Below are positions 4,181 to 18,961 of a stretch of DNA of 20,315 nt, in pieces. Each line of letters opens with the position of its first letter. The stretch's first letter is position 1. This stretch comes from a virus. The stretch spans positions 1 to 20,315 of the IMG/VR virus record IMGVR_UViG_3300032223_001361. One strand, 5' to 3'. The notes below the pieces were generated by a model, which saw only the letters and a list, made by a program, of their open reading frames with translations, was not told the origin of the DNA and did not search any database. The position numbers were made by a program, and so were the translations under genes.

Positions 4181-6727
4181 ATGGCCGATCCGCTATCCAT
4201 ACTCCCTGACGACGTGCGGGGCATAATCGCGCCCCACATAGAACCCGATACGTCGCCGGTTCTGGACACTATCGGGATCGAGATTGCTGGAAAGCGCGAT
4301 GAGGCGAAAGCCGCTCGGGCATCGTCAGGCATCGAGGCGACATGGAAAGAGGCGGAAGAAGCTTATATCGGGATTGACGACGCGAACCGGAACGAATTTG
4401 CTGCTGGGCAATGGTATAAGCCGTCGTCCCTGAGCGGGCCTGTCACAACGACCCGGATGCCGTCACAGACGGACTATAAGTCTACCGTCTACCTGCGATT
4501 AACCTCTCGGTATGTGGACGCGGGCGCGGCGAAGCTGGGGGAAATCCTTCTGCCGGCGGATGGTAAGGCTTTCAGTTTCCACGAAATGCCGGTGCCGGAA
4601 CTGACAAAGGCAAAGGACGACGAAAGCCAAGTCGTGCATAGCGGGCTTGGTGTGCCCCTTACGCGGCCTGCAACGCCTGACGATGGACAACCCCCGCCGG
4701 CACAACCGGGCGCGCCAGCGCCGGCCCGTGTTCCGCTTAGGGTCAAGGATTTAGCGACCGAGGCGATAGAGATTGCTCGCAAAGCCGCTGAGGCGGCGGA
4801 GGAACGTGTTTACGATTGGATGGTTCAAGGCCAATTCCGGGGCGAAATCCGCAAGACGTTGTTCGATGCGGCACGGATTGGGGTGGGGATCGTCAAGGCT
4901 CCGGTGCCGAAGTCCAAGCGGTCCACGGTGGTCAACAAACTGCCGGATGGGGTTAAGATCACGATCAAGGAGACGATTGTTCCCGTGGTCGAGTGGAAAG
5001 ACCCATGGAACATTTTCCCTGACCCGGCGTGCGGCGAGAATATCCACGACGGGGATTATATCTTTGAGCGGGACTATATGGCCGGGCGTCAGGTGAAGGC
5101 GCTCAAGCGGCTTCCTGGATACATCGGGTCGCAGATTGACAAGGTGTTGGAGGAAGGCCCGAACAAGATCAACAAAACCGACAACCGGGGCGATCAGGGG
5201 AACAAAACCAAAGATCGTTTCGAGGTTTGGTATTTCTACGGGGCGCTGACGAAAGACGAAATGGCGGCGATTGATGCGGCTTCGGGATGTCCCCAATCGG
5301 ACGATCTAACGGATAACGTTTATGCGCTGGTCACGCTGATAAATGACAGCGTTGTGCGCGCCACGATCAATCCGCTGGACAGCGGGGCGTTCCCCTACCA
5401 TTCCATGCCGTGGCAGCGCCGGGCGCAACAATGGGCCGGGGTTGGCATCGCGGAACAGATGCGGACACCTCAAAAGGTGGTTAATGCGGCGCTTCGGGCG
5501 CTATTGAACAATGCGGGGAAATCGGCAGGCAGTCAGTTGGTTATCAACCAGATGGCAATTCGTCCGGCGGATGGAAGCTGGGCGATAACGCCGGATAAAA
5601 TATGGTTTTCGACGGAGGATGGACCGCCCGACGTTCGGCAGGCCATGTCTGCAATCCAGGTTCCGAACGTCACGCAAGAGCTTATGAATATCATCACCTT
5701 GGGCGAGCGGTTTGCCGAGGAAACCACGTCCATTCCGCTGATTTCGCAGGGGCAGTCAGGATCGACAACCCCGGATACGTTCGGCGCGGCACAGTTGCAG
5801 AATAACAACGCAAACCAGCTTCTCCGGTCGGTTGGGTATTCGTTCGATGATTACATAACGGAGCCGATGGTCCGCCAGTTCTATGAGTGGTTGCTGTTGG
5901 ACCCGGATGTGCCGGATGACGAAAAGGCCGAGTTCCAGATTGACGCTCACGGCAGCGTTGCCCTGGTGGAGCGGGCCATTCAGGATCAGACTATTGCCCA
6001 GATGGGGCAGATGGCAGCCAATCCGATCTATGGGATAGACCCCAAGAAATGGTCTGACGAGTTCCTGCGGTCCAAGAAACTTGACCCGGGCCGCATGAAA
6101 TACACGGATGAGGAACAAGCCAAGATTGACGCGGCACCTCCGCCGGAAGCGCCGGCTATTTCCGTCGCCAAGATCAATGCGGACACCCAGCTTAAATTGG
6201 GCGTGATGAAGCAACAGGTGGACCAACAGACAGCGCAGGCCGAGGGGCAGATTGCTGCTGCTGCCCATGTTTTGGAGGGTGGCAAGGCTCAGATTGAGCA
6301 ACAGCGGGTGCAAGGCGAACTGACGATTGCGGCGCACCAAATCCAGATGGAGCACGACCGGGCGCTGATGGATTACGCGAACCGGGAGAAAATCAGCCTT
6401 GACGCTGCAAAGGCGCAGTTGGCCAAAACTGCCATGGAATTGCAAACTGAGCGAGATTTGAACGCGGCGAACAACGCGGTTGCCCTTCATAAGCACCGGA
6501 CGGCGCCAGCGGTGGTCAAGACACCGGGGCAGATAAAGTCACCGACACAGGTTCCGGGCAGGGCTGCGAATGGGCAGTCGTTTTCACAGAGCGCGAGTGG
6601 CGGCAAACAAGGCGGTGGCAGCATACCTCCCGCTGCCTTGGCGCATCTTGTCCCCGGCCACGTCACGACGTTCGGCAACGGGCAAAAATGGACGGTTGAG
6701 AATGGCCAGCCTCGGAAGGTTGCATAG
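4181..6727 (+). CDS. Portal (head-to-tail connector) protein, large podovirus type
   Basis: An 848-residue protein in the portal position directly downstream of terminase. The N-terminal region contains the helical wing start (about 40-110, including EEAYIGIDDANR and YKSTVYLRLTSRYVD). A Pro/Ala-rich insertion lies at about 155-185. The core has VEWKDPWNIFPDPACGENI and IFERDYM (about residues 269-305), typical of large portal proteins of N4- or P22-like podoviruses. A helical clip/stem region follows, with MPWQRRAQQWAGVGIAEQMR. Residues about 660-770 are a long Gln/Ala-rich coiled coil that could form a barrel extending into the capsid, as in P22-like portals. The C-terminal tail is Gly/Ser-rich. 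No ribosome binding site is evident before ATG 4181. The gene ends TAG, overlapping the next GTG. Confidence 0.88.
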   Translation: MADPLSILPDDVRGIIAPHIEPDTSPVLDTIGIEIAGKRDEAKAARASSGIEATWKEAEEAYIGIDDANRNEFAAGQWYKPSSLSGPVTTTRMPSQTDYKSTVYLRLTSRYVDAGAAKLGEILLPADGKAFSFHEMPVPELTKAKDDESQVVHSGLGVPLTRPATPDDGQPPPAQPGAPAPARVPLRVKDLATEAIEIARKAAEAAEERVYDWMVQGQFRGEIRKTLFDAARIGVGIVKAPVPKSKRSTVVNKLPDGVKITIKETIVPVVEWKDPWNIFPDPACGENIHDGDYIFERDYMAGRQVKALKRLPGYIGSQIDKVLEEGPNKINKTDNRGDQGNKTKDRFEVWYFYGALTKDEMAAIDAASGCPQSDDLTDNVYALVTLINDSVVRATINPLDSGAFPYHSMPWQRRAQQWAGVGIAEQMRTPQKVVNAALRALLNNAGKSAGSQLVINQMAIRPADGSWAITPDKIWFSTEDGPPDVRQAMSAIQVPNVTQELMNIITLGERFAEETTSIPLISQGQSGSTTPDTFGAAQLQNNNANQLLRSVGYSFDDYITEPMVRQFYEWLLLDPDVPDDEKAEFQIDAHGSVALVERAIQDQTIAQMGQMAANPIYGIDPKKWSDEFLRSKKLDPGRMKYTDEEQAKIDAAPPPEAPAISVAKINADTQLKLGVMKQQVDQQTAQAEGQIAAAAHVLEGGKAQIEQQRVQGELTIAAHQIQMEHDRALMDYANREKISLDAAKAQLAKTAMELQTERDLNAANNAVALHKHRTAPAVVKTPGQIKSPTQVPGRAANGQSFSQSASGGKQGGGSIPPAALAHLVPGHVTTFGNGQKWTVENGQPRKVA

Positions 6728-7602: not shown

Positions 7603-7829
7603 TCGCTCCCGACCCGCCTTTCATCCTCACGGAGAATGAAAAGGCTACGCTCTTGTGGGCGCGGATCAAAGGACACCTCAACGATAAACTGGCAGCGGCG
7701 CGGCGTCGCAATGACACCCCGCAGTCAGAACAGGAAACCGCAATGTTACGCGGTGAGATTAAGACCCTCAAGGGGATCATCGCCCTTGGGGACGACCGGC
7801 CAGTGACCGGAGATGATGGGACACCGTAA
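7599..7829 (+). CDS. Small head-module protein, unknown
   Basis: A 76-residue protein with TTG start at 7599 overlapping the previous TGA (TTGA). It is a helical, charged protein: ENEKATLLWARIKGHLNDKL (about residues 12-31), then a second helix, QETAMLRGEIKTLKGIIALG, with a disordered acidic end. I recall similar short proteins just before scaffold genes in related podovirus-like phages, and no function is known to me. No strong ribosome binding site is visible, so translation probably depends on coupling to the upstream gene. It could be a capsid assembly factor or part of the scaffold system. Confidence 0.75.
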   Translation: MIAPDPPFILTENEKATLLWARIKGHLNDKLAAARRRNDTPQSEQETAMLRGEIKTLKGIIALGDDRPVTGDDGTP

Positions 7830-7850
7830 GGCGCCCACGATGGAGCAAAC

Positions 7851-8669
7851 ATGAGCTTGGAAAACGACGCTAACGATAGCGCCTTGGAAGATGCTGACCT
7901 TGCGTCAGGATTTACAGGCGAGACGGTTGTAAAAGCAGCCAAGGCCCCGGACCCCGAAGTGAAGGCAGAAGTCGCGGAAACCCCACGACCGGAGCCGACA
8001 CCGAAGCCGGAATACGTGCGGTTGACCAAAAGCGATTGGGAAGAAGTGAAGGCTGCCGCTGCTAAGACGGCCTCTTATGACGCCCAGTTGTCCAAGGCGT
8101 TCGGCACGATTGGCAACCTGCAAAAGATCGTCAACGGGCTACAGTCTGCCAAAACGGGCGGGATCAAGCTGACACCGGAAGCTTTCGCCGAAATGGAGAA
8201 GGATTTTCCCGAGTTAGCCCAACAGACCCGCACGGCATTGGAAAAAGCTCTTTCAGGCGTCAACGGCAGTTCCGCCGATGCGCCAGACTTTAAGGCTTTG
8301 GCGGCAGAAATCGCCAACGCTCGCGAAGTGGAGGCACTGGAAGATGCTCATCCGGACTGGCGCACTATCGTCGGCGCGGTCGATATCACGAAAGAGCAAC
8401 CAAACGCGGGTAACCCGTTTCGGAAATGGCTCGCCACCAAAGACGCCACCTATCAGGCGCGCGTCAATGCAACCGAGTCCGCCGCCGTGATTTCTCGCGC
8501 GATTAATCTATTCCAAGCTGAGACGAAAGCATCAACCACCACGCCCGTCCGCGCCGATGCACGGTCAGAGCGTATCCGTGGAGCGGTGCAGCCTAAAGGC
8601 GATGGTGGTCCCCAGGCGCCGGGCAAAACTGACGACGACGAATTCCTCGCGGGTTTCAACTCGCGCTAA
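7851..8669 (+). CDS. Putative capsid scaffold protein
   Basis: A 272-residue protein with GGAG at 7842-7845 upstream. It directly precedes the major capsid gene, the usual place for the scaffold. Composition fits: an acidic disordered N-terminus (1-35), a Pro/Glu-rich linker (ETPRPEPTPKPEYV), then mostly helices including a likely coiled coil (about 60-100 and 125-165). A basic C-terminal stretch (VRADARSERIRGAVQP) is followed by an acidic DDDEFLAGF end. Scaffolds guide assembly of the capsid protein into a procapsid through a short basic C-terminal helix and are then removed. No protease gene or motif is seen nearby. The call rests on position and composition; scaffold sequences are poorly conserved. 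Confidence 0.8.
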   Translation: MSLENDANDSALEDADLASGFTGETVVKAAKAPDPEVKAEVAETPRPEPTPKPEYVRLTKSDWEEVKAAAAKTASYDAQLSKAFGTIGNLQKIVNGLQSAKTGGIKLTPEAFAEMEKDFPELAQQTRTALEKALSGVNGSSADAPDFKALAAEIANAREVEALEDAHPDWRTIVGAVDITKEQPNAGNPFRKWLATKDATYQARVNATESAAVISRAINLFQAETKASTTTPVRADARSERIRGAVQPKGDGGPQAPGKTDDDEFLAGFNSR

Positions 8670-8673
8670 CCTC

Positions 8674-8686
8674 ATAGGAGCCTATC
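8674..8686 (+). promoter_or_regulatory. Ribosome binding site of the major capsid gene, inside a small inverted repeat
   Basis: AGGAG at 8676-8680 lies six bases before ATG 8687, a strong Shine-Dalgarno sequence as expected for the most abundant virion protein. It is embedded in a perfect inverted repeat, ATAGG-AG-CCTAT (8674-8685), which could form only a very small, weak hairpin. Any regulatory effect is speculative. Confidence 0.7.
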
Positions 8687-9757
8687 ATGGCTGTTCAAAA
8701 CTTCTCCCTCACTCCCGGCCGGATTAACAAATACAAGGGCGAAATCCTGGCGCACGCAGTGCCCCTGGAAGTCCTCGGCAAGACTGGCCGGCAAATCCCG
8801 ATGCCTCGCAATCAGTCGGATACCTACGTCGCCCGGAAGTGGCTGCCGTATGGCGCGACCGCGACCAACGGGACAACCCAGAATGCGTTATTCCAGAACG
8901 GCACTGGGGACCGTGGCAACACCATCGCCCAAAACCACCAAATCCAGGAAGGCGTGACCCCTGCCCCTGACAGCATCGTGCCGCTGGATATCACGGTTGT
9001 GGTCCAGCAGTTCGGCTGCCTCTACGGGTTCACGGACAAGACATACGACCTGTATGAGGATGATATCCCCAAGGCGATGATCTAGCAGATTGGCGAGCGC
9101 GTCACCTTCGTCAATGAAATGATCATCTGGGGCGCGCTGCGTGGCTGCACCAACGCCTATTACGGGGGCACCGGCACATCGGTTGCAACCGTCAATGGCG
9201 GATTGACCCTCGGCATTGTTCGCAAGATCGCGAAGAACCTGCAAGCCAACCACGGCAAGCCGGTGAACAAGATGCTGAAGGCCGGCCCGAATTTCGGCAC
9301 CGACCCCGTTGCCGAAGGTTATACGGTCTATTGCCACACCGACCTGGAACCGGATATTCGCGACCTGCCGAATTTCATTCCTTCTGAAGCCTATGCGACG
9401 GGCGTTCCGCAGGCCAACGAAATCGGGAAATGCGAGCGGTTCCGGTTCATCACGTCCCCCGATCTTCCGTCCATTCAGGACGGCGGCGCGGCCATCGGTG
9501 CGACCGGGTTGTATTCCACAACCGGAACCAGCATCGACGTGTATCCGTTCATTGTGACGGCGCAGGATGCTTGGGGCCAGATTGCCCTGCGCGGTAAGGA
9601 CAGCCTTTCCCCGACGTTCCTCCCGCCCGGCGAAAAATCCAAGTCTGACCCGCTGGGTCAGCGCGGATACGCCGGCACGGCTTGGTGGAAAGCCGTTATG
9701 ATCGAAAACCAGGGATGGATGGCCGTTGGCTACGTCGGTTCCAAGGTTCTGGTCTAA
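8687..9757 (+). CDS. Major capsid protein, N4-gp56 family, interrupted by an in-frame amber codon
   Basis: Reading 8687-9757 in one frame gives 356 positions plus TAA, the size of an N4-gp56-type major capsid protein. The first 132 residues contain NKYKGEILAHAVPLEVLGKT, MPRNQSDTYVARKW and FGCLYGFTDKTYDLYEDDIP. Position 133 is TAG (9083-9085). The frame then continues without a shift with QIGERVTFVNEMIIWGALRG, GKPVNKMLKAGPNFGT and a C-terminal part ending GYVGSKVLV. The two halves together make the family; neither alone could form the HK97-like fold. No ribosome binding site precedes the ATG at 9119, so restart is unlikely. A CAG-to-TAG change fits (next codon CAG). Options are a mutation or sequencing error, suppression by host tRNA, or programmed readthrough. 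A strong ribosome binding site and the position after the scaffold gene support its identity. Confidence 0.9.
9083..9085 (+). other. In-frame amber (TAG) codon in the major capsid gene
   Basis: Codon 133 of the capsid reading frame, in the context ATG ATC TAG CAG ATT. The upstream and downstream codons belong to the same conserved helix region. Five other genes in the window end in TAG with another gene or another stop close behind, so TAG normally terminates here. Confidence 0.9.
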
Positions 9758-9781
9758 TCGTGAAAGGTTAGGAGAAGTCCA

Positions 9782-10282
9782 ATGCTTGACACGATGACCC
9801 GATACCTCTCGAACATCAAGGAGAATGCGTTCCGCCGAGCGGTGCGTATTCCCATGCTTAACTTGGTGGACCGCTATTCTTCGCAACCGCTGACAACTGC
9901 CGGCCTTGTGATTAAGGCCGGTGGCGGAACGCTTGCGAAGACCGGCGCGGCTGCCTTCTACGCCACCGCTCAAGGCGTTTTGGTCACGATTGCCGCATCC
10001 ACGGATATGCCCGCGCTAACGGGTATCAACATCACGGCGGCGAATTACAACGTCGTGTGTTTTTTCGTGGATAGCGCATCGGTCGTTACGGTTGCAGCGG
10101 GGACGCAGGGTGCCACACTCGGCGCGGTCGTTTTCCCGCAGTTTCCTCAAGGCAAGGCTTTGGTAGGGTTCTTAATCATTACCTACGCCAGCACCTTTAC
10201 GGGAGGCACAACCGCCCTTGACACCGCAACCACCGTCTACGTCAGCCCGTTGGGTCCGTTCGATCCCACGGTGCTTGTATAA
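9782..10282 (+). CDS. Putative capsid-associated or decoration protein, beta-rich
   Basis: A 166-residue protein with AGGAGA at 9770-9775 before ATG 9782. After a short helical N-terminus (MTRYLSNIKENAFRRAV, about residues 4-20), the rest is Ala/Thr/Val-rich beta sequence, such as LVIKAGGGTLAKTGAAAFY and KALVGFLIITYAS. It has no signal peptide. The position right after the major capsid gene, a strong ribosome binding site and a beta-rich composition suggest a structural protein such as a capsid decoration or head fibre component. A tail role cannot be excluded. The following gene has a similar composition and layout and may be a distant paralogue. The TAA stop overlaps the next ribosome binding site. 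Confidence 0.65.
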   Translation: MLDTMTRYLSNIKENAFRRAVRIPMLNLVDRYSSQPLTTAGLVIKAGGGTLAKTGAAAFYATAQGVLVTIAASTDMPALTGINITAANYNVVCFFVDSASVVTVAAGTQGATLGAVVFPQFPQGKALVGFLIITYASTFTGGTTALDTATTVYVSPLGPFDPTVLV

Positions 10283-10294
10283 GGAAACCCTCAA

Positions 10295-10798
10295 ATGGCA
10301 GACAACATCAACTTCAACTCTGGCATCACGATCAATCTCGTGTCCGCCGCCGCCGTTGCTGGCACCACCAGCACCTACACCACGACCGTCACGACGGAAT
10401 GCGTCATCAACGGTAAGTATGCCACCACATTGGGGGCACAGACCAACACCGCGACACCGACCACGGACGCGACCACCGCCGCAGCTTTTGTTGCGTTGGC
10501 GCCGAACCAGTGTTGCACTTTGGTTTTGGGGCAGAACTTGGCCGGGGCAATCAAAATGTCGCAAGGGCCGATCATCGCGACGAATACCGGCGTGACGACC
10601 ACGGTGGGCACGTTCCTTCGTGATCCGCAGTTCCCGACCCTGCCGGACGATTTTTGCCCGCTGGCCTATACTGTGGTCCGCACGGCCCCAAGCGCCTCCG
10701 CATGGACGCCTGGGACAAGCTCGTGGACGGCTTCTGGCGTATCCGCCAGCACCTTCCAGAACGTGGCTCAGTTGCCGAACCGTCCTCAGTCAAGCTGA
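10295..10798 (+). CDS. Putative head structural protein, Thr/Ala-rich
   Basis: A 167-residue protein with AAGGAAA at 10281-10287 as ribosome binding site. It is rich in Thr, Ala and Val with predicted beta structure throughout, for example NFNSGITINLVSAAAVAGTT and TPGTSSWTASGVSASTFQNV. Three cysteines occur: one near residue 34 and an adjacent pair near 70. The style is that of phage surface or decoration proteins. The end segment (CPLAYTVVRTAPSA, then a Ser/Thr-rich stretch) roughly parallels the end of the preceding gene product (LVGFLIITYAST, then a Thr-rich stretch). Function is inferred only from position and composition. A hairpin with a T-rich tail follows the gene. Confidence 0.62.
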   Translation: MADNINFNSGITINLVSAAAVAGTTSTYTTTVTTECVINGKYATTLGAQTNTATPTTDATTAAAFVALAPNQCCTLVLGQNLAGAIKMSQGPIIATNTGVTTTVGTFLRDPQFPTLPDDFCPLAYTVVRTAPSASAWTPGTSSWTASGVSASTFQNVAQLPNRPQSS

Positions 10799-10816
10799 GC
10801 CGGCATAGCCGACAAC

Positions 10817-10850
10817 GGCGCCGCGCCTTGCGTGCGGCGTCCGTTCCCTT
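10817..10850 (+). terminator. Candidate terminator after the capsid genes
   Basis: GGCGCCGC (10817-10824) pairs with GCGGCGTC (10834-10841), eight base pairs with one G-U, around a nine-base loop. A pyrimidine-rich, T-containing stretch (CGTTCCCTTCCTC) follows, without a clean T run. It sits in the 71-base gap after the capsid/decoration block. It could be a partial terminator or an mRNA 3'-end stabiliser that keeps capsid mRNA levels above those of the tail genes. Confidence 0.35.
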
Positions 10851-10869
10851 CCTCATACCGGAGCATTTC

Positions 10870-11361
10870 ATGGCCCGCCAAGAACTCCATAGCGATCAGT
10901 TCAAAACCGAACAGCGTCCGCCGATACCCATTGACCCGAATTCCTATGATGGGGATATCGTCATGGTCGATAACCTGGGGGATAAGGACTATGCGGCGGA
11001 ACTGGCATTCATGGAGGAACCCGTCAAAATCCGGCTTGAGCCGAGTGCGGAAAAGAACGCTTCGGGCGCGCATCCGTTCTGGGTGAATGGTAAGGCAGCC
11101 GAGGTATTCCAGAATGGTCGCTGGGATGAAATCGGGTATCTGCCGGTCGGTGTAGTGCTAACGGTCAAGCGTAAGGTTCTTGAAGTCATCATCCGCGCCA
11201 AGACGGACACGGTGCAAACGAAGGTCCAGGAATTCAACGGCGAATTGCCGAATAACCTGATGACCCGGTTCACGTCTCCGCAACACTCGTTTTCGATTAT
11301 CGAGGATCGTAACCCGCGCGGGCCGGCTTGGGTCGCGGAACTGCGGCGCCGGAATTTCTGA
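10870..11361 (+). CDS. Conserved structural protein of unknown function
   Basis: A 163-residue protein from ATG 10870 with GGAG at 10860-10863. The frame is open further left but overlaps the previous gene and the hairpin, so this start is preferred. Notable segments are VMVDNLGDKDYAAELAFMEE (about residues 31-50), HPFWVNGKAAEVFQNGRW, VGVVLTVKRKVLEVIIRAKT and a basic end (PAWVAELRRRNF). It is mixed alpha/beta and soluble, with no signal peptide. Its position between capsid/decoration genes and the head-tail adaptor suggests a structural or head-completion role. I recognise the general type from related phage structural regions but not a named function. Confidence 0.72.
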   Translation: MARQELHSDQFKTEQRPPIPIDPNSYDGDIVMVDNLGDKDYAAELAFMEEPVKIRLEPSAEKNASGAHPFWVNGKAAEVFQNGRWDEIGYLPVGVVLTVKRKVLEVIIRAKTDTVQTKVQEFNGELPNNLMTRFTSPQHSFSIIEDRNPRGPAWVAELRRRNF

Positions 11362-11460
11362 CCTTATGGGGATTTCTACCCCTTTCGCGTCGCGGCCTGT
11401 TTTGCGATATGACGCATACACTAATATCACAATAGACATAAAGCCGCGAGGGATAATCGC
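11362..11460 (+). promoter_or_regulatory. AT-rich intergenic stretch before the tail genes, possible terminator and promoter
   Basis: GGGG-ATTTCTA-CCCC (11368-11382) followed by TTT could form a minimal four-pair hairpin. The next part is unusually AT-rich for this window (about 11409-11440, including TAATAT and CACAATAG). TTGCGA (11402-11407) is a possible -35, with TATCAC (11425-11430) at 17 bases or TAATAT at 14. Neither is a good match, so a promoter is only suggested. GAGGGA (11448-11453) is a good ribosome binding site for the following ATG. Confidence 0.3.
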
Positions 11461-12192
11461 ATGAACTATTTGCAATTATGCCAACGCGCTTGTGTTGAAT
11501 GTGGCGTGGCGTCTAACCAAGCGATTTTGACGGCATTGCCGACCGTTGTTGGGGCTACCGGGAGCACAGGGCGTATTGTCAACTGGGTATCCGATGCGTT
11601 TTCCGATATTCTTATGGACCACGATGATTGGGATTTCATGCGGTCCAGCAACCTGTTGGGCGGCGGGGTATCCTTCGCGACCGTCGCCGGGCAAGCGTCT
11701 TATCCTCTCGGCACGGGCGCGGGAACTGTTGGCGTTATTGCCGATAATTTCGGGAAATGGGACCGCGTGACGTTCCGCAACTACACCACCTCGGTGGGAT
11801 ACACGAATGAAATGTATCTGGACGAAATCCCGTATGATACATGGCGCAACAGCTACATGCTTGGTTCGATGCGGACGGTGCAGACAAGGCCGGTTGCGGT
11901 AGCTATAGGACCGGATCAGTCGGTTTGCCTCGGCCCCCCGCCGAACGGGCTTTATACGGTAACGGCGGACTATTTCGTTGCCCCGACTAATATGGTTCTC
12001 GATGCGGATATTCCCACGGGTTTGCCGACGCGCTTTCATATGCTGATCGTTTACGCTACGATGATTAAGTATGCGGGTTACGAAAGCGCGCCGGAAGTTC
12101 TCGCGCGGGGACAACGGGAATACAACGGCATGTATGCTCAGTTGCAGGCAGTTCGTGCCCCGGCGATATCGTTTGGGGGTGCGCTCGCTTGA
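11461..12192 (+). CDS. Head-tail adaptor / tail tubular protein A-like
   Basis: A 243-residue protein with a good ribosome binding site (GAGGGA). It has the layout of podovirus adaptor proteins (T7 gp11 / P22 gp4-like role): an N-terminal helical part NYLQLCQRACVECG, a helix ending VNWVSDAFSDILMDHDDWDF (about residues 41-60), and beta segments with ASYPLGTG and RVTFRNY. The C-terminal helices contain PTRFHMLIVYATMIKYAGYE and a last helix with REYNGMYAQLQAV. Such proteins form a ring under the portal and connect it to the tail nozzle. The stop overlaps the TTG start of the nozzle-like gene (TTGA), which fits joint expression. Confidence 0.8.
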   Translation: MNYLQLCQRACVECGVASNQAILTALPTVVGATGSTGRIVNWVSDAFSDILMDHDDWDFMRSSNLLGGGVSFATVAGQASYPLGTGAGTVGVIADNFGKWDRVTFRNYTTSVGYTNEMYLDEIPYDTWRNSYMLGSMRTVQTRPVAVAIGPDQSVCLGPPPNGLYTVTADYFVAPTNMVLDADIPTGLPTRFHMLIVYATMIKYAGYESAPEVLARGQREYNGMYAQLQAVRAPAISFGGALA

Positions 12193-14303
12193 ACGCCGCC
12201 GCATCCCAATGGGCGCCGATAAAATACACCCAGACGCAGCTAGGCGGCGGGGTCACGCAGCAAGGCCAGCCATATCCGGGTGGTCTCGATCTTGTCACGC
12301 CGTCGCTGCGGTTGCAGCCGGGTGCCTTAACGGATGCGCTTAATTTCGAGATTGCCCCGTTCGGCGGGTATTCTCGGATTGATGGGTATGAGCGGATGGA
12401 CGGTCGCGCTTCCCCCTCGGGAGCGACCTATACCGTCCTGGTGTTGGCATCCTTCGTCACCCTCCCGACTATTGGCCAGACGGTCACACAGGATACCAGC
12501 GGCGCGACTGGGGTTATCATAGCCATCCGGCCGTCCAACCCGTCCTACCTCATTGTGACGAAAACGACGGGGGTGTTTGACGCAACGCACGCATTGACCA
12601 CGCCCGGCCCTATTTCTATCGGCACGGTCAATTCTCTGAGGACCACGCTGGATGCCGCGACGCAAGCGATCTATACAGCCGCCGCTGCTGATGTTTACCG
12701 CGCGCTCATTCAGCAAGTTCCGGGCAGTGGTGGTATCCTTGGCGTTGTCGCGATGGCGTTCTCTGGCACCGATCATGTTTACGCATTCCGCGCGAAGGTC
12801 GGAGGGACTGCCGTTGCGCTCTACAAGGCGAGCGGATCAGGATGGACGTTAGTTCCATTCTATAACATCGTGAGTTTCACCGCTGGCGGAACGGCTGTCC
12901 CGCTGGATGGTGACGTGCTGACGCAAGGCGGGGTAACTGCCACGATCAAGCGGGTTATGTGGCAGTCGGGCGCTTGGTCAGGAACGGCAGTCGGTCAATT
13001 CGTTGTAACCAATCCTGCCGGCGGCAATTTCGCTGCGGGAGCGGCCACGACGACCAGTGGCGCGACAATCACGCTGTCAGGCATTCAAACGGCGATCACT
13101 CTCCTGCCGGGCGGCAAGTTCGAATTTCAAAAGGCGAATTTCTCCGGTCAGCTTATAACACGCCGGATTTATGGCTGCGACGGGATCAATCAGTGTTTCG
13201 AGTTCGACGGTGACACATTGGCACCGATCAAGACGGGCCTTTCGCCTGACGCGCCTTCCCATATTCGGTTCCACAAGAATTACCTCGTCATATCGCAGGC
13301 CGCTTCTATCTTTGGTTGCGCGGCTGGGCTGCCATTCAAATGGAGCGCGGTTGACGGTGCATGGGAATTTGCGACGGGCGATACTGTCACCGGGTTAATC
13401 ACGCTTCCCGGCAGTCAGACCAACGCGACGCTTGGCGTTTTCATGCTGACAAATTCAGCATTTCTGTATGGGTCTGATCCGACCACCTTTAATTATGTGG
13501 CATTCAACACAGGAATAGGCGCGGTCGCCAAGAGCGTGCAAAACCTGTTCGATACGTTCTTTCTCGATGACCTTGGTGTTGTCACTCTCAAAACAACGCT
13601 CAATTGGGGTAATTTCCTTCCCTCCACCTTAACGAAAAATATCCTTCCATTCATCGCGCGGGAACGCGGCAACCTGTTAGCATCCTCGGTCCATAGGGCT
13701 AAGAGCCAATACCGCCTATTTTTCAGCGACGGATATGCGCTCTTTTGCACAGTCCTAAACCAGCAATATATGGGTGCCATGCCGATCCTGTTCCCTGCGG
13801 CAATGTCATGCGTTGACACGACAACCCTAACAACCGGCAATGAAGCGTCTTACGCGGGATCGTCTACAAACGGGTATGTTTTCCAGCTTGATATTGGGAC
13901 CAGTTTCGACGGCGCGGCCATATCGGCTTATATTGTGACATCATGGGACCCAATCCGCTCCCCCCGCATCCTCAAACGGTTCCGGGCCGCTTCAATAGAG
14001 GTCCAAGGCGGATCGTATGCGACTTTTCAATATGGCTATCAGCTTGGATATAATGTGTCGCAAATTGAACAAATCCCGGCGGTTCCCGTGGGTTTGAATT
14101 TCAGTTCCTTGCCTTACTGGGATTCTTTTGTATGGGATTCGTTCACATGGGACGGGAATGTGGTTTCCCCGAGTGATATTGACGAAACCGGGACGGCGGA
14201 GAACATCCGGGTCACGATCACGTCCGGCACGAATTACATCGCATCATATACGATCGCTTCGATAATCCACCATTATTCCATGCGTAGGGGGCTAAGGGTT
14301 TGA
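12189..14303 (+). CDS. Tail nozzle/tubular B-like protein
   Basis: A 704-residue, largely beta-strand protein starting at TTG 12189 (TTGA overlap; GGGGGT 6-8 bases upstream). The N-terminus has YPGGLDLVTPSLRLQPGALT (about residues 29-48), then FEIAPFGGYSRIDGYERMDG, a pattern I associate with large tail proteins next to the adaptor in podovirus-like phages. The middle part is Thr/Gly-rich. About residues 325-560 have propeller-like repeats (IYGCDGINQCFEF, FLDDLGVVTL, YRLFFSDGYALF). Near the C-terminus is a tandem aromatic WDSFVWDSFTWDG. In T7 and P22, the protein in this place forms the tail tube or nozzle below the adaptor. The assignment rests on order, size and fold type. Confidence 0.7.
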   Translation: MNAAASQWAPIKYTQTQLGGGVTQQGQPYPGGLDLVTPSLRLQPGALTDALNFEIAPFGGYSRIDGYERMDGRASPSGATYTVLVLASFVTLPTIGQTVTQDTSGATGVIIAIRPSNPSYLIVTKTTGVFDATHALTTPGPISIGTVNSLRTTLDAATQAIYTAAAADVYRALIQQVPGSGGILGVVAMAFSGTDHVYAFRAKVGGTAVALYKASGSGWTLVPFYNIVSFTAGGTAVPLDGDVLTQGGVTATIKRVMWQSGAWSGTAVGQFVVTNPAGGNFAAGAATTTSGATITLSGIQTAITLLPGGKFEFQKANFSGQLITRRIYGCDGINQCFEFDGDTLAPIKTGLSPDAPSHIRFHKNYLVISQAASIFGCAAGLPFKWSAVDGAWEFATGDTVTGLITLPGSQTNATLGVFMLTNSAFLYGSDPTTFNYVAFNTGIGAVAKSVQNLFDTFFLDDLGVVTLKTTLNWGNFLPSTLTKNILPFIARERGNLLASSVHRAKSQYRLFFSDGYALFCTVLNQQYMGAMPILFPAAMSCVDTTTLTTGNEASYAGSSTNGYVFQLDIGTSFDGAAISAYIVTSWDPIRSPRILKRFRAASIEVQGGSYATFQYGYQLGYNVSQIEQIPAVPVGLNFSSLPYWDSFVWDSFTWDGNVVSPSDIDETGTAENIRVTITSGTNYIASYTIASIIHHYSMRRGLRV

Positions 14304-16105
14304 CCAATCCATACTACGCCGCGTCGGGCAATCCTGGGACTGGATCGACGGGGCTTTCGTCCCTTATGCGTGCGGAATTTGCGTCGATCAGCGCCGCTTT
14401 TGACCTGTTGCCAGCATTTTCTGGTATTGGCGGGTTGGCGGTTGTCGTTAATGGTGGTGGGTCGGGGTTAACCCTCACAACCGGCCAACTTGCCCTCGCG
14501 GGGAATTTCTCGACTACGGGCGCTTTCAACACGGTATTCGCCCAGTCGGCATCGATCACGATTACGTTGCCGGGTGTTTCCGGGACAATGGCGACGCTGG
14601 CAGGGACGGAAACCCTAACCAACAAGACGCTTGTGGCTCCTGCGTTGGGGACGCCTGTGTCTGGCGTTATGACCAACGTCACCGGCACGGCGGCGGGATT
14701 GACGGCAGGGAACGCAACCACGGCGACCAATCAATCCGGCGGCACCGTGTCTGCCACGACCCTGGCGGCTTCCAGCACGGTATCGGGGCAAGGGTTTATC
14801 GACCGGCTTGCGACCCCAGGCCCAATTGGGAATACCTCTGCCTCAACCGGTGCATTTACGACGCTTTCCGCTTCATCGACGGTAAGCGGGTCCGGGTTCT
14901 CGACCTATCTTGCTTCCCCCCCGGCTATCGGCGGCTCCGCGCCAGCGGCGGGTGCATTCACGACATTAAGCGCCAGCAGCACGGCAACGGCTCCGACTGC
15001 CGCGCCGGGCACGAATACCACTGTGATCGCATCCACGGCCTTTGTCACCGCTGCGGTAACGGTCGAAACTAGCCGCGCCACGACAGCCGAGGCTTTGCTG
15101 GCGCCCTTGGCAAGCCCAACCCTATCAGGCACGCCGCTTGCCCCTACAGCCGCTCCTGGCACAAACACAACTCAGATTGGCAGCACGGCCTTCGTCACCG
15201 CCGCTGTGTTAGTGGAAACCAACCGGGCGACCACTGCCGAGGCGTTGCTTGCCCCAAAGGCCAGCCCGGCATTAACGGGGACGCCAACCGTTCCGACTGC
15301 TGCGGCAGGAACTAACACGACGCAAGCTGCCAGCACGGCCTTTGCAATGGCTATCCCAACGCCGGGATATTTGTTCGGATTGACCCTTTCCAACGATGGT
15401 GGGACGCCCAACACGGTTTTGGATATCGCCGCCGGGTCATGCGCTGACAGCACCAACGCGGTTAAGATCACGTTAGGCGCCTTTACCAAATCTACGGCTG
15501 GCTCATGGGCGGCGGGTTCTGGTGGCAATGGTATGGGCGCCGGACTGACGATTGCTAATTCGACATGGTATCATGTGTTCGCCATCATCAACACGGGCGC
15601 GGCAGATGCGTATTTTGATACGTCAATCACGGCGGCGAATAAGCCGGCGTCAACGACCTATTTCAGGCGCATCGGGTCATTCAAGACCGATAGTTCGGCG
15701 CGCATCGTTGCGTTTTCCCAGAATGGAGACCGGTTCGATCTGGCCGCGCCGGTTCTAGAGTATGGAGCAACAGCGGGCGTTATAACAGCCATCACCCAAA
15801 CGCTCGTCGCCGTGCCTACGGGGGTCGCTGTCGAAGCCATCCTATCGGGAGACATCGCGGATGCAACAAACAGTAACTCTATCCTCTACGTCTCCTCATT
15901 GTCGCAAACGAACTTGGCCGCGACTGTTACAAACCAGACTGCGCTTCTCGGGGGGGCCGCTTCAATTTACGCCGCAGCGTCTTTTTCCGACCTAAGAATT
16001 ATCACCAATGCGTCGGCTCAGATTCGCTGGCGGGTTAACTCCACTACCGCGAGTTTGAATTTAAACACGAACGGCTGGATCGACACCAGGGGAAGGTTTG
16101 CCTAA
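14300..16105 (+). CDS. Tail fibre protein with tandem repeats
   Basis: A 601-residue protein from TTG 14300, overlapping the previous stop, with AGGGGG at 14286-14291. The N-terminal part (1-130) is typical of fibres: NPYYAASGNPGTGSTGLSSL and TMATLAGTETLTNKTL. About residues 160-225 contain repeats of the GAFTTLSASSTVSG type. Residues 231-348 hold two and a third exact-length 50-residue repeats (TAAPGTNTT ... STAFVTAAV). The C-terminal 250 residues are a different, beta-rich domain ending NTNGWIDTRGRFA, likely the receptor-contacting tip. No chaperone-like intramolecular protease is recognised. The fibre binds the cell surface, so the C-terminal domain likely sets host range. Confidence 0.87.
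   Translation: MTNPYYAASGNPGTGSTGLSSLMRAEFASISAAFDLLPAFSGIGGLAVVVNGGGSGLTLTTGQLALAGNFSTTGAFNTVFAQSASITITLPGVSGTMATLAGTETLTNKTLVAPALGTPVSGVMTNVTGTAAGLTAGNATTATNQSGGTVSATTLAASSTVSGQGFIDRLATPGPIGNTSASTGAFTTLSASSTVSGSGFSTYLASPPAIGGSAPAAGAFTTLSASSTATAPTAAPGTNTTVIASTAFVTAAVTVETSRATTAEALLAPLASPTLSGTPLAPTAAPGTNTTQIGSTAFVTAAVLVETNRATTAEALLAPKASPALTGTPTVPTAAAGTNTTQAASTAFAMAIPTPGYLFGLTLSNDGGTPNTVLDIAAGSCADSTNAVKITLGAFTKSTAGSWAAGSGGNGMGAGLTIANSTWYHVFAIINTGAADAYFDTSITAANKPASTTYFRRIGSFKTDSSARIVAFSQNGDRFDLAAPVLEYGATAGVITAITQTLVAVPTGVAVEAILSGDIADATNSNSILYVSSLSQTNLAATVTNQTALLGGAASIYAAASFSDLRIITNASAQIRWRVNSTTASLNLNTNGWIDTRGRFA
14990..15343 (+). repeat. 150-base tandem repeat in the tail fibre gene (2.36 copies)
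   Basis: Units start at 14990, 15140 and 15290, spacing exactly 150 bases (50 codons). The first two encoded units are identical at 42 of 50 residues; the third stops after about 18 codons. DNA identity is lower than protein identity because of many synonymous differences, so the repeat is old and kept by selection rather than a fresh duplication. Confidence 0.9.
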
Positions 16106-17490
16106 TGTCCGGATCTATCACTCCCGGCTTGAACGCTCCGACCGTTCCCCCTGTCACGGCACCGCCGCCGGCTGGACCCACAACCCCACCTCCAATGACC
16201 GGGCTGATAAACAGCGCCCCAGACGCTGCACAGACGGTCGGAAGCGCGACGGTCAATCCCTACACCCCAAACACGGGCACGGCATCCACGGCGCAAGCGG
16301 TGGGCGCTACGCCTAACGCCTTTACCGTCGCGCCTGATCAGACGGTATCCGGGCAAATCCAGAACATTATCGCTTCCGGTTCCCCGCTCATGCAGCAGGC
16401 CGAGGCGAACGCACGCAACTTGATGAACCAGCGCGGTCTTATCAATTCCAGCATGGGGATAACGGCAGATCAGTCGGCACTTTATTCGGCAGCGGCACCC
16501 ATCGCTACGGCAGACGCCAATACCTATAACCAAGCCGCTACAAATACCACGACGGCACAGAACGCGGCCCTCACGGCACAGGCAGCGGCGACCAACACCG
16601 CCGGCCTGCAAAACGCTCAAATTCAGACGCAAAACTCGCAATTCAACGCGGCGGCTGGGAACACCGCCCAACAGACGGCGCAACAGATCGCCGCTGCCAA
16701 AGATACCGCGACCGTCCAGACAAGTTCGCAGCAAGCCATCGCGAAAATACAGTCCGACACGTCGCTGTCGGTTCAGGACAAAGCCTCGGCAACATCGCAG
16801 ATTATCGCGGGTATCCAGGCTAATACCAGCATGTCCAATCAGGATAAGCAGGATGCAACGTCGCTTGCTATCCAGTCGGCCCAGACCGGGTTGCAAACAT
16901 ACCTCGGAAACCTGCAAGCGAATACGCAGCTTTCTATTCAAGACCGTTCGGCACAGGCAACCGCTGCATTGGCATCGGTAAACAACCTGAACGCTCAGAC
17001 GATTGCGAATATCCAAGCCAACACCAGCCTAAGTGTTGAAAAGCAGCAGGCCGCATCGGCTCAGGTCATTGCGAGCATGAACAACGCAAACGCAGTGACG
17101 GTGCAAAATCTGCAAAATGCCGCCGCGCTGGAAAACATCAAGGCGAACGGTGCGATTAACACCGAAATCCAGAATATCACGAACCAAGGCAAGACGATCC
17201 TGCAAACCTCGGCTAGCGCGGCACAGTTGTATAATCAGGTGCTAACGAACCTTTCCTCTATCATGACCAATCCAAACCTAAGCACCGCACAACAGACCAT
17301 TGCGCTCAATAACGGGATTTCACAACTAAAGGATGGATTGGCCGCATTAAACGGGATAGCAGCCAATCAAGCGGTAACAACTAATCTGGTATTCACTGAT
17401 CCTACCGCCTCTGCGGTTTCTAACCCGACATCTGCGGTTTCTAACCCGATCTTTGCATCAACGCCCGCCACCGATTTCGCTACCGATTAG
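16105..17490 (+). CDS. Putative internal virion / ejection protein, Gln/Ala/Asn-rich
   Basis: A 461-residue protein from ATG 16105 overlapping the fibre stop (TAATG), with AGGGGAAGG at 16088-16096. The N-terminus (1-50) is a Pro/Thr-rich disordered leader. Next comes VSGQIQNIIASGSPLMQQAE (about residues 83-102) and NQRGLINSSMGITADQSALY, a pattern I recall from podovirus internal proteins. Residues about 150-370 form a long Gln/Ala helical region with degenerate repeats such as IQSDTSLSVQDK, IQANTSMSNQDK, LQANTQLSIQDR and IQANTSLSVEK. Such coiled proteins are carried in the head and ejected to build the channel across the envelope. The end carries a 21-base tandem repeat. Stop is TAG, then TAA four codons later in frame. 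Confidence 0.72.
   Translation: MSGSITPGLNAPTVPPVTAPPPAGPTTPPPMTGLINSAPDAAQTVGSATVNPYTPNTGTASTAQAVGATPNAFTVAPDQTVSGQIQNIIASGSPLMQQAEANARNLMNQRGLINSSMGITADQSALYSAAAPIATADANTYNQAATNTTTAQNAALTAQAAATNTAGLQNAQIQTQNSQFNAAAGNTAQQTAQQIAAAKDTATVQTSSQQAIAKIQSDTSLSVQDKASATSQIIAGIQANTSMSNQDKQDATSLAIQSAQTGLQTYLGNLQANTQLSIQDRSAQATAALASVNNLNAQTIANIQANTSLSVEKQQAASAQVIASMNNANAVTVQNLQNAAALENIKANGAINTEIQNITNQGKTILQTSASAAQLYNQVLTNLSSIMTNPNLSTAQQTIALNNGISQLKDGLAALNGIAANQAVTTNLVFTDPTASAVSNPTSAVSNPIFASTPATDFATD
17410..17451 (+). repeat. 21-base tandem duplication in the ejection-protein gene
   Basis: TCTGCGGTTTCTAACCCGA occurs at 17410-17428 and again at 17431-17449, within 21-base units, encoding SAVSNPT then SAVSNPI. 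The 19 identical bases, including the synonymous positions, suggest a recent in-frame duplication by replication slippage. Confidence 0.9.
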
Positions 17491-17882: not shown

Positions 17883-18961
17883 TCGCTGTTGGCGCAGCCA
17901 TCGCTGCCAGTGCCTTCGCGGCTGTCGATGTTGCTGCTGTCGGGATTGCGGCCATGAGTGTCGGCACGGCTCTTGAGGTTGTCACTGCTGTTGGCGCTAC
18001 CCTTGGCGCGATTGGCGTCGTTACCGGAGACAAAAACCTTGCGATGGTTGGCGGGGTTATCGGGGCAATCGGCGGGATCGGAGCCTTAGCGTCCTCGGCT
18101 GGCGTCATCGCCGGGGATGCCCCGTTATTTGGGGTATCTACGGCCTCCAATGCAGGGAGTATTACAGCTTCGGCGGCTGATAATGCGGCAGGGGCAGTCG
18201 GAGACACGGTGACCGGAGCCAATTCTTTGGCCAGCGGCGCACCTGGGAGCATTACCCAAGGCGCTGGAATGTCGGTCGCCGATGCGGCTTCTTCCGGCAA
18301 GTCAGCCGTTGACGCCATTGCATCTGGAACAACGGTTGCGGATCAAGCGTCGGCCGGCATTGTTGGTTCGATCACTAATCCGACACCGGAAGCCGCTGCG
18401 GACCCGTTTAGTGCTGGAGCGAACGCTCAGTGGAATTTAGTCTCAAAATCAGATGCTACCAATCCGGCGGCTGCAAATAGTGTCGGGGCGGGCAATACGG
18501 CTGCAGGGACACTTGACACCGGATTAATTAACAACGCACCTGCTTCGACTGGCGCGGGGCCAGCAGCGGCTACGCCGCCTCCCGGCGCTTCTGCGACCGG
18601 ATTTATCGATAGCGGCAACTTCACGGACGTCACAAAAGACGAGGCGAAAGACACTAGTATCTTCGGCAGCATTCTGGACTTCGCCAAGAAGAACCCGGCA
18701 GTTGCAATGGGCGTCATTCAAGCCGGCGGCTCGTTCATTTCCGGCATGACAAGCACCCTCACGCCAGCCCAGGCTAATGCGGCCAATGCACAGGCGGCAG
18801 CGAACAACGCAGCTGCTGCCCTTACGGTTCAACAGACGGCCAATTTGGCCATGCCGAAGGCAGTTGCATCGTCCACGCCTGTAACTGGCACGCCCGCGCC
18901 TTTAGTTCCTCAAGGACTTATCAACCAACCGCCGAAAATCAACGTAACGGGGGCGCCATAG
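17873..18961 (+). CDS. Putative ejection protein with glycine-zipper membrane segments
   Basis: A 362-residue protein whose start overlaps the preceding gene. Residues 2-35 and 36-85 are hydrophobic, Gly/Ala-spaced helices (AVGAAIAASAFAAVDVAAVG; AVGATLGAIGVVTGDKNLAM; GGVIGAIGGIGALASSAGV). This is a glycine-zipper pattern able to insert in membranes. The middle (90-250) is Ala/Ser/Gly-rich low complexity. About residues 255-290 contain DFAKKNPAVAMGVIQAGGSF, then a short Ala/Asn/Gln coiled stretch. Proteins of this kind in podovirus-like phages lie with the internal proteins and are thought to help DNA cross the inner membrane. Function here is inferred from position and composition. It ends TAG one base before the next ATG. 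Confidence 0.68.
   Translation: MPIIAVGAAIAASAFAAVDVAAVGIAAMSVGTALEVVTAVGATLGAIGVVTGDKNLAMVGGVIGAIGGIGALASSAGVIAGDAPLFGVSTASNAGSITASAADNAAGAVGDTVTGANSLASGAPGSITQGAGMSVADAASSGKSAVDAIASGTTVADQASAGIVGSITNPTPEAAADPFSAGANAQWNLVSKSDATNPAAANSVGAGNTAAGTLDTGLINNAPASTGAGPAAATPPPGASATGFIDSGNFTDVTKDEAKDTSIFGSILDFAKKNPAVAMGVIQAGGSFISGMTSTLTPAQANAANAQAAANNAAAALTVQQTANLAMPKAVASSTPVTGTPAPLVPQGLINQPPKINVTGAP

Follow-up and report, generated by a model that had tools for sequence, protein, structure and literature searches.

The major capsid protein gene of an uncultivated virus record in IMG/VR contains a single in-frame amber codon, which we interpret, with a probability of roughly 0.92, as an isolated single-base nonsense substitution (Glu GAG to TAG) in one assembled record, without function. 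We favor this reading because no internal stop was found in any of the 89 related capsid genes that were fetched (80 loci and further loci), codon 133 is a sense codon everywhere, and signs of recoding are lacking. The stretch analyzed here (the window) is the whole record of 20,315 bases, a linear fragment covering part of a phage genome. Three features of it are central to the argument:

8674..8680, + strand: AUAGGAG, resembling a Shine-Dalgarno sequence and preceding the capsid start codon
8687..9757, + strand: N4-gp56-type major capsid protein gene of 356 codons with one in-frame TAG inside (TIGR04387, PHROG 1357; relatives in 80 viral contigs share 75-97% identity)
9083..9085, + strand: in-frame amber codon 133 of the capsid gene; relatives have GAG/GAA (Glu, 76/80) or ACC/ACG (Thr, 4/80)

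The capsid gene and its relatives

As written, the capsid open reading frame runs from 8687 to 9085 and encodes 132 amino acids, closed by the TAG at 9083-9085. When the TAG is taken as a residue, a single frame of 356 amino acids results, from the ATG at 8687 to the TAA at 9755-9757. A search of the record itself found exactly one internal stop in this gene, a TAG, which confirmed its placement at codon 133 by the initial annotation. The read-through protein matched TIGR04387, the NCBIfam model of the N4-gp56 major capsid protein, with an E-value of 6e-54 and 183.5 bits, passing the 60-bit cut-off for membership, and matched PHROG 1357 (major head protein) with an E-value of 4.8e-54, so that the proposed family assignment was borne out; Pfam gave no match for the product. 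Both halves carry segments of the family, as had been claimed: the C-terminal half alone matched TIGR04387 with an E-value of 1.5e-44 (152.7 bits), and the N-terminal half alone weakly, under the cut-off (6.4e-5, 22.4 bits). Alignments to the relatives contained no indel, frameshift, or insertion at codon 133, in agreement with the earlier reading, and a frameshift or insertion was rejected as the cause of the split. Judged by these matches, the frame is plainly one conserved gene, rather than a chance juxtaposition of two. A structure of the read-through protein predicted from 41 sequences had a mean pLDDT of 30.2, and no structural argument was drawn from it.

Relatives were collected as 80 loci in viral contigs, whose capsid proteins shared 75-97% identity with the read-through product in the best segment. 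The codon aligned to position 133 was GAG in 49 of these, GAA in 27, ACC in 3, and ACG in 1, corresponding to glutamate in 76 and threonine in 4; the column was conserved in 78 of 82 homologs. The residue is thus glutamate in most of the family and not glutamine, contrary to the CAG codon that the initial annotation had implied, and the TAG of the window is one base away from GAG. A degenerate DNA scan around codon 133, with its first base left open, matched 11 contigs, and all eight that were re-read, including two not met before, contained GAG. While N4-gp56 major capsid relatives (TIGR04387/PHROG 1357) have uninterrupted frames, which holds for all 89 genes, the copy in the window is interrupted by the one TAG at codon 133. 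The initial annotation would have given up a biological role for the codon if all relatives had a sense codon while this genome was a non-viable variant. The first half of this is what was found, as 89 of 89 relatives are free of internal stops, while the second half concerns the viability of the genome. In all 87 relatives with a readable gene end, the stop coincides in position with that of the window gene (50 TAA, 31 TGA, and 6 TAG), which shows that TAG serves as an ordinary terminator among capsid relatives (6/87).

The nearest relative (L001/L086) was 95.6% identical in capsid DNA and has GAG at codon 133. Its contig of 12,001 bases aligned to positions 7678-14967 of the window with 94.5% identity, and over these 7.3 kb, 324 substitutions and four gaps were counted, the latter located between genes or a multiple of three in length. 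No broken frame besides the capsid stop was found in this shared region. Relative to L086, the capsid codons before 133 contained 6 synonymous and 2 amino acid-changing differences, and those from 133 onwards 30 synonymous and 7 other changes, including the stop. Constraint past the stop is thus not relaxed, and because it equals the constraint before it, the stop would be recent, or unreal, or read through; constraint alone cannot discriminate between these. Departures from near-invariant residues that were specific to the window in the region shared with L086 were F68L and the stop at E133 in the capsid gene, and N203K in the gene at 12189, with L086 having one such departure of its own. Residue 68 of the capsid protein is phenylalanine in 74 of 82 homologs and in the nearest relative, and leucine in the window.

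Origin and background rate of the stop

Most likely, then, the capsid TAG represents an error or a dead variant, and not new biology. The caution of the initial annotation that the codon may be an error was well placed. We infer that GAG was probably read as TAG by a consensus or base-call error in the metagenome contig, although the rest of the record looks clean in the part comparable with relatives and gives no indication of a high overall error rate. Alternatively, the TAG could be a genuine null allele carried by a population member that is either rare or non-productive.

This second branch overlaps with a broader alternative, in which a true mutation has inactivated the capsid gene of a decaying prophage, or of a defective phage complemented by a co-infecting intact phage. 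Genuine null alleles do occur, if infrequently, and F68L, as a second change at a near-invariant capsid residue, could reflect relaxed constraint. Against this, every other gene that was checked has an open, conserved frame, so that the capsid stop is the sole disruption, and the unrelaxed constraint after the stop means that any inactivation must be very recent. We regard an inactivating mutation as a tentative option, improbable but far from negligible.

The type of base change was considered as well. F68L (C to A) and the capsid stop (G to T) both belong to the G:C to T:A class that oxidized guanine gives rise to, G to T being the typical direction of such damage in library preparation (PMC12390751). 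Two such sites are too few to argue for a damage-type origin. The polarized spectrum is uninformative, as only four window-derived changes were polarized at depth, of which three, including the stop, were G to T, too few to conclude from.

An isolated nonsense substitution gains context from the frequency of such codons in comparable records. We surveyed 630 aligned gene copies, comprising 170,761 codons, from 83 contigs of relatives, and this flagged four internal stops. Those in the portal genes of L039 and L040 are close to the C-terminus, a region in which gene ends vary, and probably represent shifted gene ends. The other two were true lone nonsense codons: a TAG at codon 44 of a conserved fragment of the terminase large subunit (VWD*GW) at the start of locus L069, and an in-frame TGA at approximately 2338-2340 of L038, in the gene that immediately follows the capsid gene. 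Like the capsid TAG, both are single, lie in a conserved frame, and are absent from other relatives; they differ from it in affecting other genes and, for L038, in being a TGA. Approximately 3.2% of single-base changes in the window's capsid gene create a stop, so that two stops correspond to some 60 unselected single-base changes in approximately 512 kb, or about 1 per 10,000 bases. At this rate, a 20-kb record would carry a lone stop in somewhat fewer than one in ten cases, and one is therefore expected when many windows are scanned. The capsid TAG thus looks compatible with a background event. A literature search on premature stops in viral contigs gave no hits. Nonsense codons that stand alone in one metagenome contig have a measurable background (2 in approximately 171,000 codons of relatives), and comparison with relatives should precede any interpretation as recoding.

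Recoding, suppression, and restart

The capsid gene is the only gene in the window that holds an internal TAG, and under code 11 the remaining genes have their full length. Calculated read-through of the terminal TAGs of the genes ending at 803, 4175, 6727, 17490, and 18961 added 67, 17, 32, 5, and 15 residues, respectively, yielding short tails or overlaps only; at 6727, the TAG shares bases with the start codon of the following gene. Gene ends were compared for the genes ending at 17490, whose homologs end at offsets of -5 and +3 from its TAG, and at 18961, whose homologs end +3, +5, and +18 codons from its TAG; the comparison leaves aside the genes with ends at 803 and 4175. As the TAG-ended genes read sensibly and homologs, where compared, end nearby, global or partial recoding of TAG was rejected. 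This agrees with the initial annotation, which had argued against global recoding, and is in line with the single internal TAG and with relatives terminating at TAG.

Known code-15 phages insert glutamine at TAG, whereas the relatives of the window have glutamate (76/80) or threonine (4/80) at this position. The window resembles such phages in having a TAG inside a conserved structural gene. They have many in-frame TAGs, however, and would be expected to show a low coding density under code 11, whereas the window has one TAG only, its genes end normally at TAG elsewhere, and no suppressor tRNA was seen in it. In the code-15 phage phAss-1, 41 ORFs contain TAG (PMC10607447).

It is very unlikely that a suppressor tRNA of phage or host, or programmed readthrough, inserts a residue at amber codon 133 to give a full-length capsid protein. 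The sequence downstream of the stop is still constrained, as this reading would predict, and amber suppressor tRNAs are known from phages, including 52.4% of those predicted to use code 15 (PMC11210395). No tRNA was detected in the 20-kb window, however, nor any Rfam family, even at an E-value of 1. ARAGORN called tRNAs over the cut-off in 3 of 14 relatives' records (Asn, Trp, Ile, and Arg), and one further weak candidate in relatives fell short of the cut-off and was absent from the ARAGORN calls. A suppressor tRNA with a CUA anticodon was thus found neither in the window, which is a fragment, nor among these four tRNAs. Since the record is part of a phage genome, a suppressor could sit elsewhere in the phage or in its host, but a true fixed amber codon suppressed in that manner is more improbable still. 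If it were true, capsid production would hinge on the suppressor, amounting to a code-dependent host range.

A conserved readthrough site was likewise not observed, as no relative has a stop at codon 133. The 120 nt after the stop folded with a z-score of -1.86 relative to shuffled sequences, 9 of 200 of which folded equally well, in a GC-rich coding region and with the test covering pseudoknot-free structures. This RNA structure is only moderately better than that of shuffles, and is not a strong readthrough signal. For the suppressor tRNA, programmed readthrough, or functional truncated form put forward by the initial annotation, no supporting evidence was found.

A separate role for the 132-amino acid N-terminal product, or for a C-terminal product of restart, has a negligible chance of being correct: an ATG is present in the open frame at 9119-9757, but no Shine-Dalgarno sequence precedes this ATG or the neighboring position 9122, the N-terminal half by itself is missing most of the region matched in the family, and the split occurs in no relative. 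Nothing like the AUAGGAG of the capsid gene lies ahead of 9119, as the initial annotation had stated in noting no restart signal, and internal restart was rejected.

Other features of the record

A DNA search with the whole window gave no match among cultured phages. In bacterial and archaeal genomes, a single relative of the capsid gene turned up, on a 3,075-base contig of a Curvibacter sp. MAG (L090), which may hint at a host within the Burkholderiales, too weakly for host assignment. Compared with L086, the window contains an additional 48-base intergenic stretch at 11400-11447. Finally, the gene at 14300-16105 contains internal repeats (window positions 14846-15720), stretches of which match L086 at several offsets with 69-78% identity, similar to the internal repeats of repetitive tail-fibre-like proteins.
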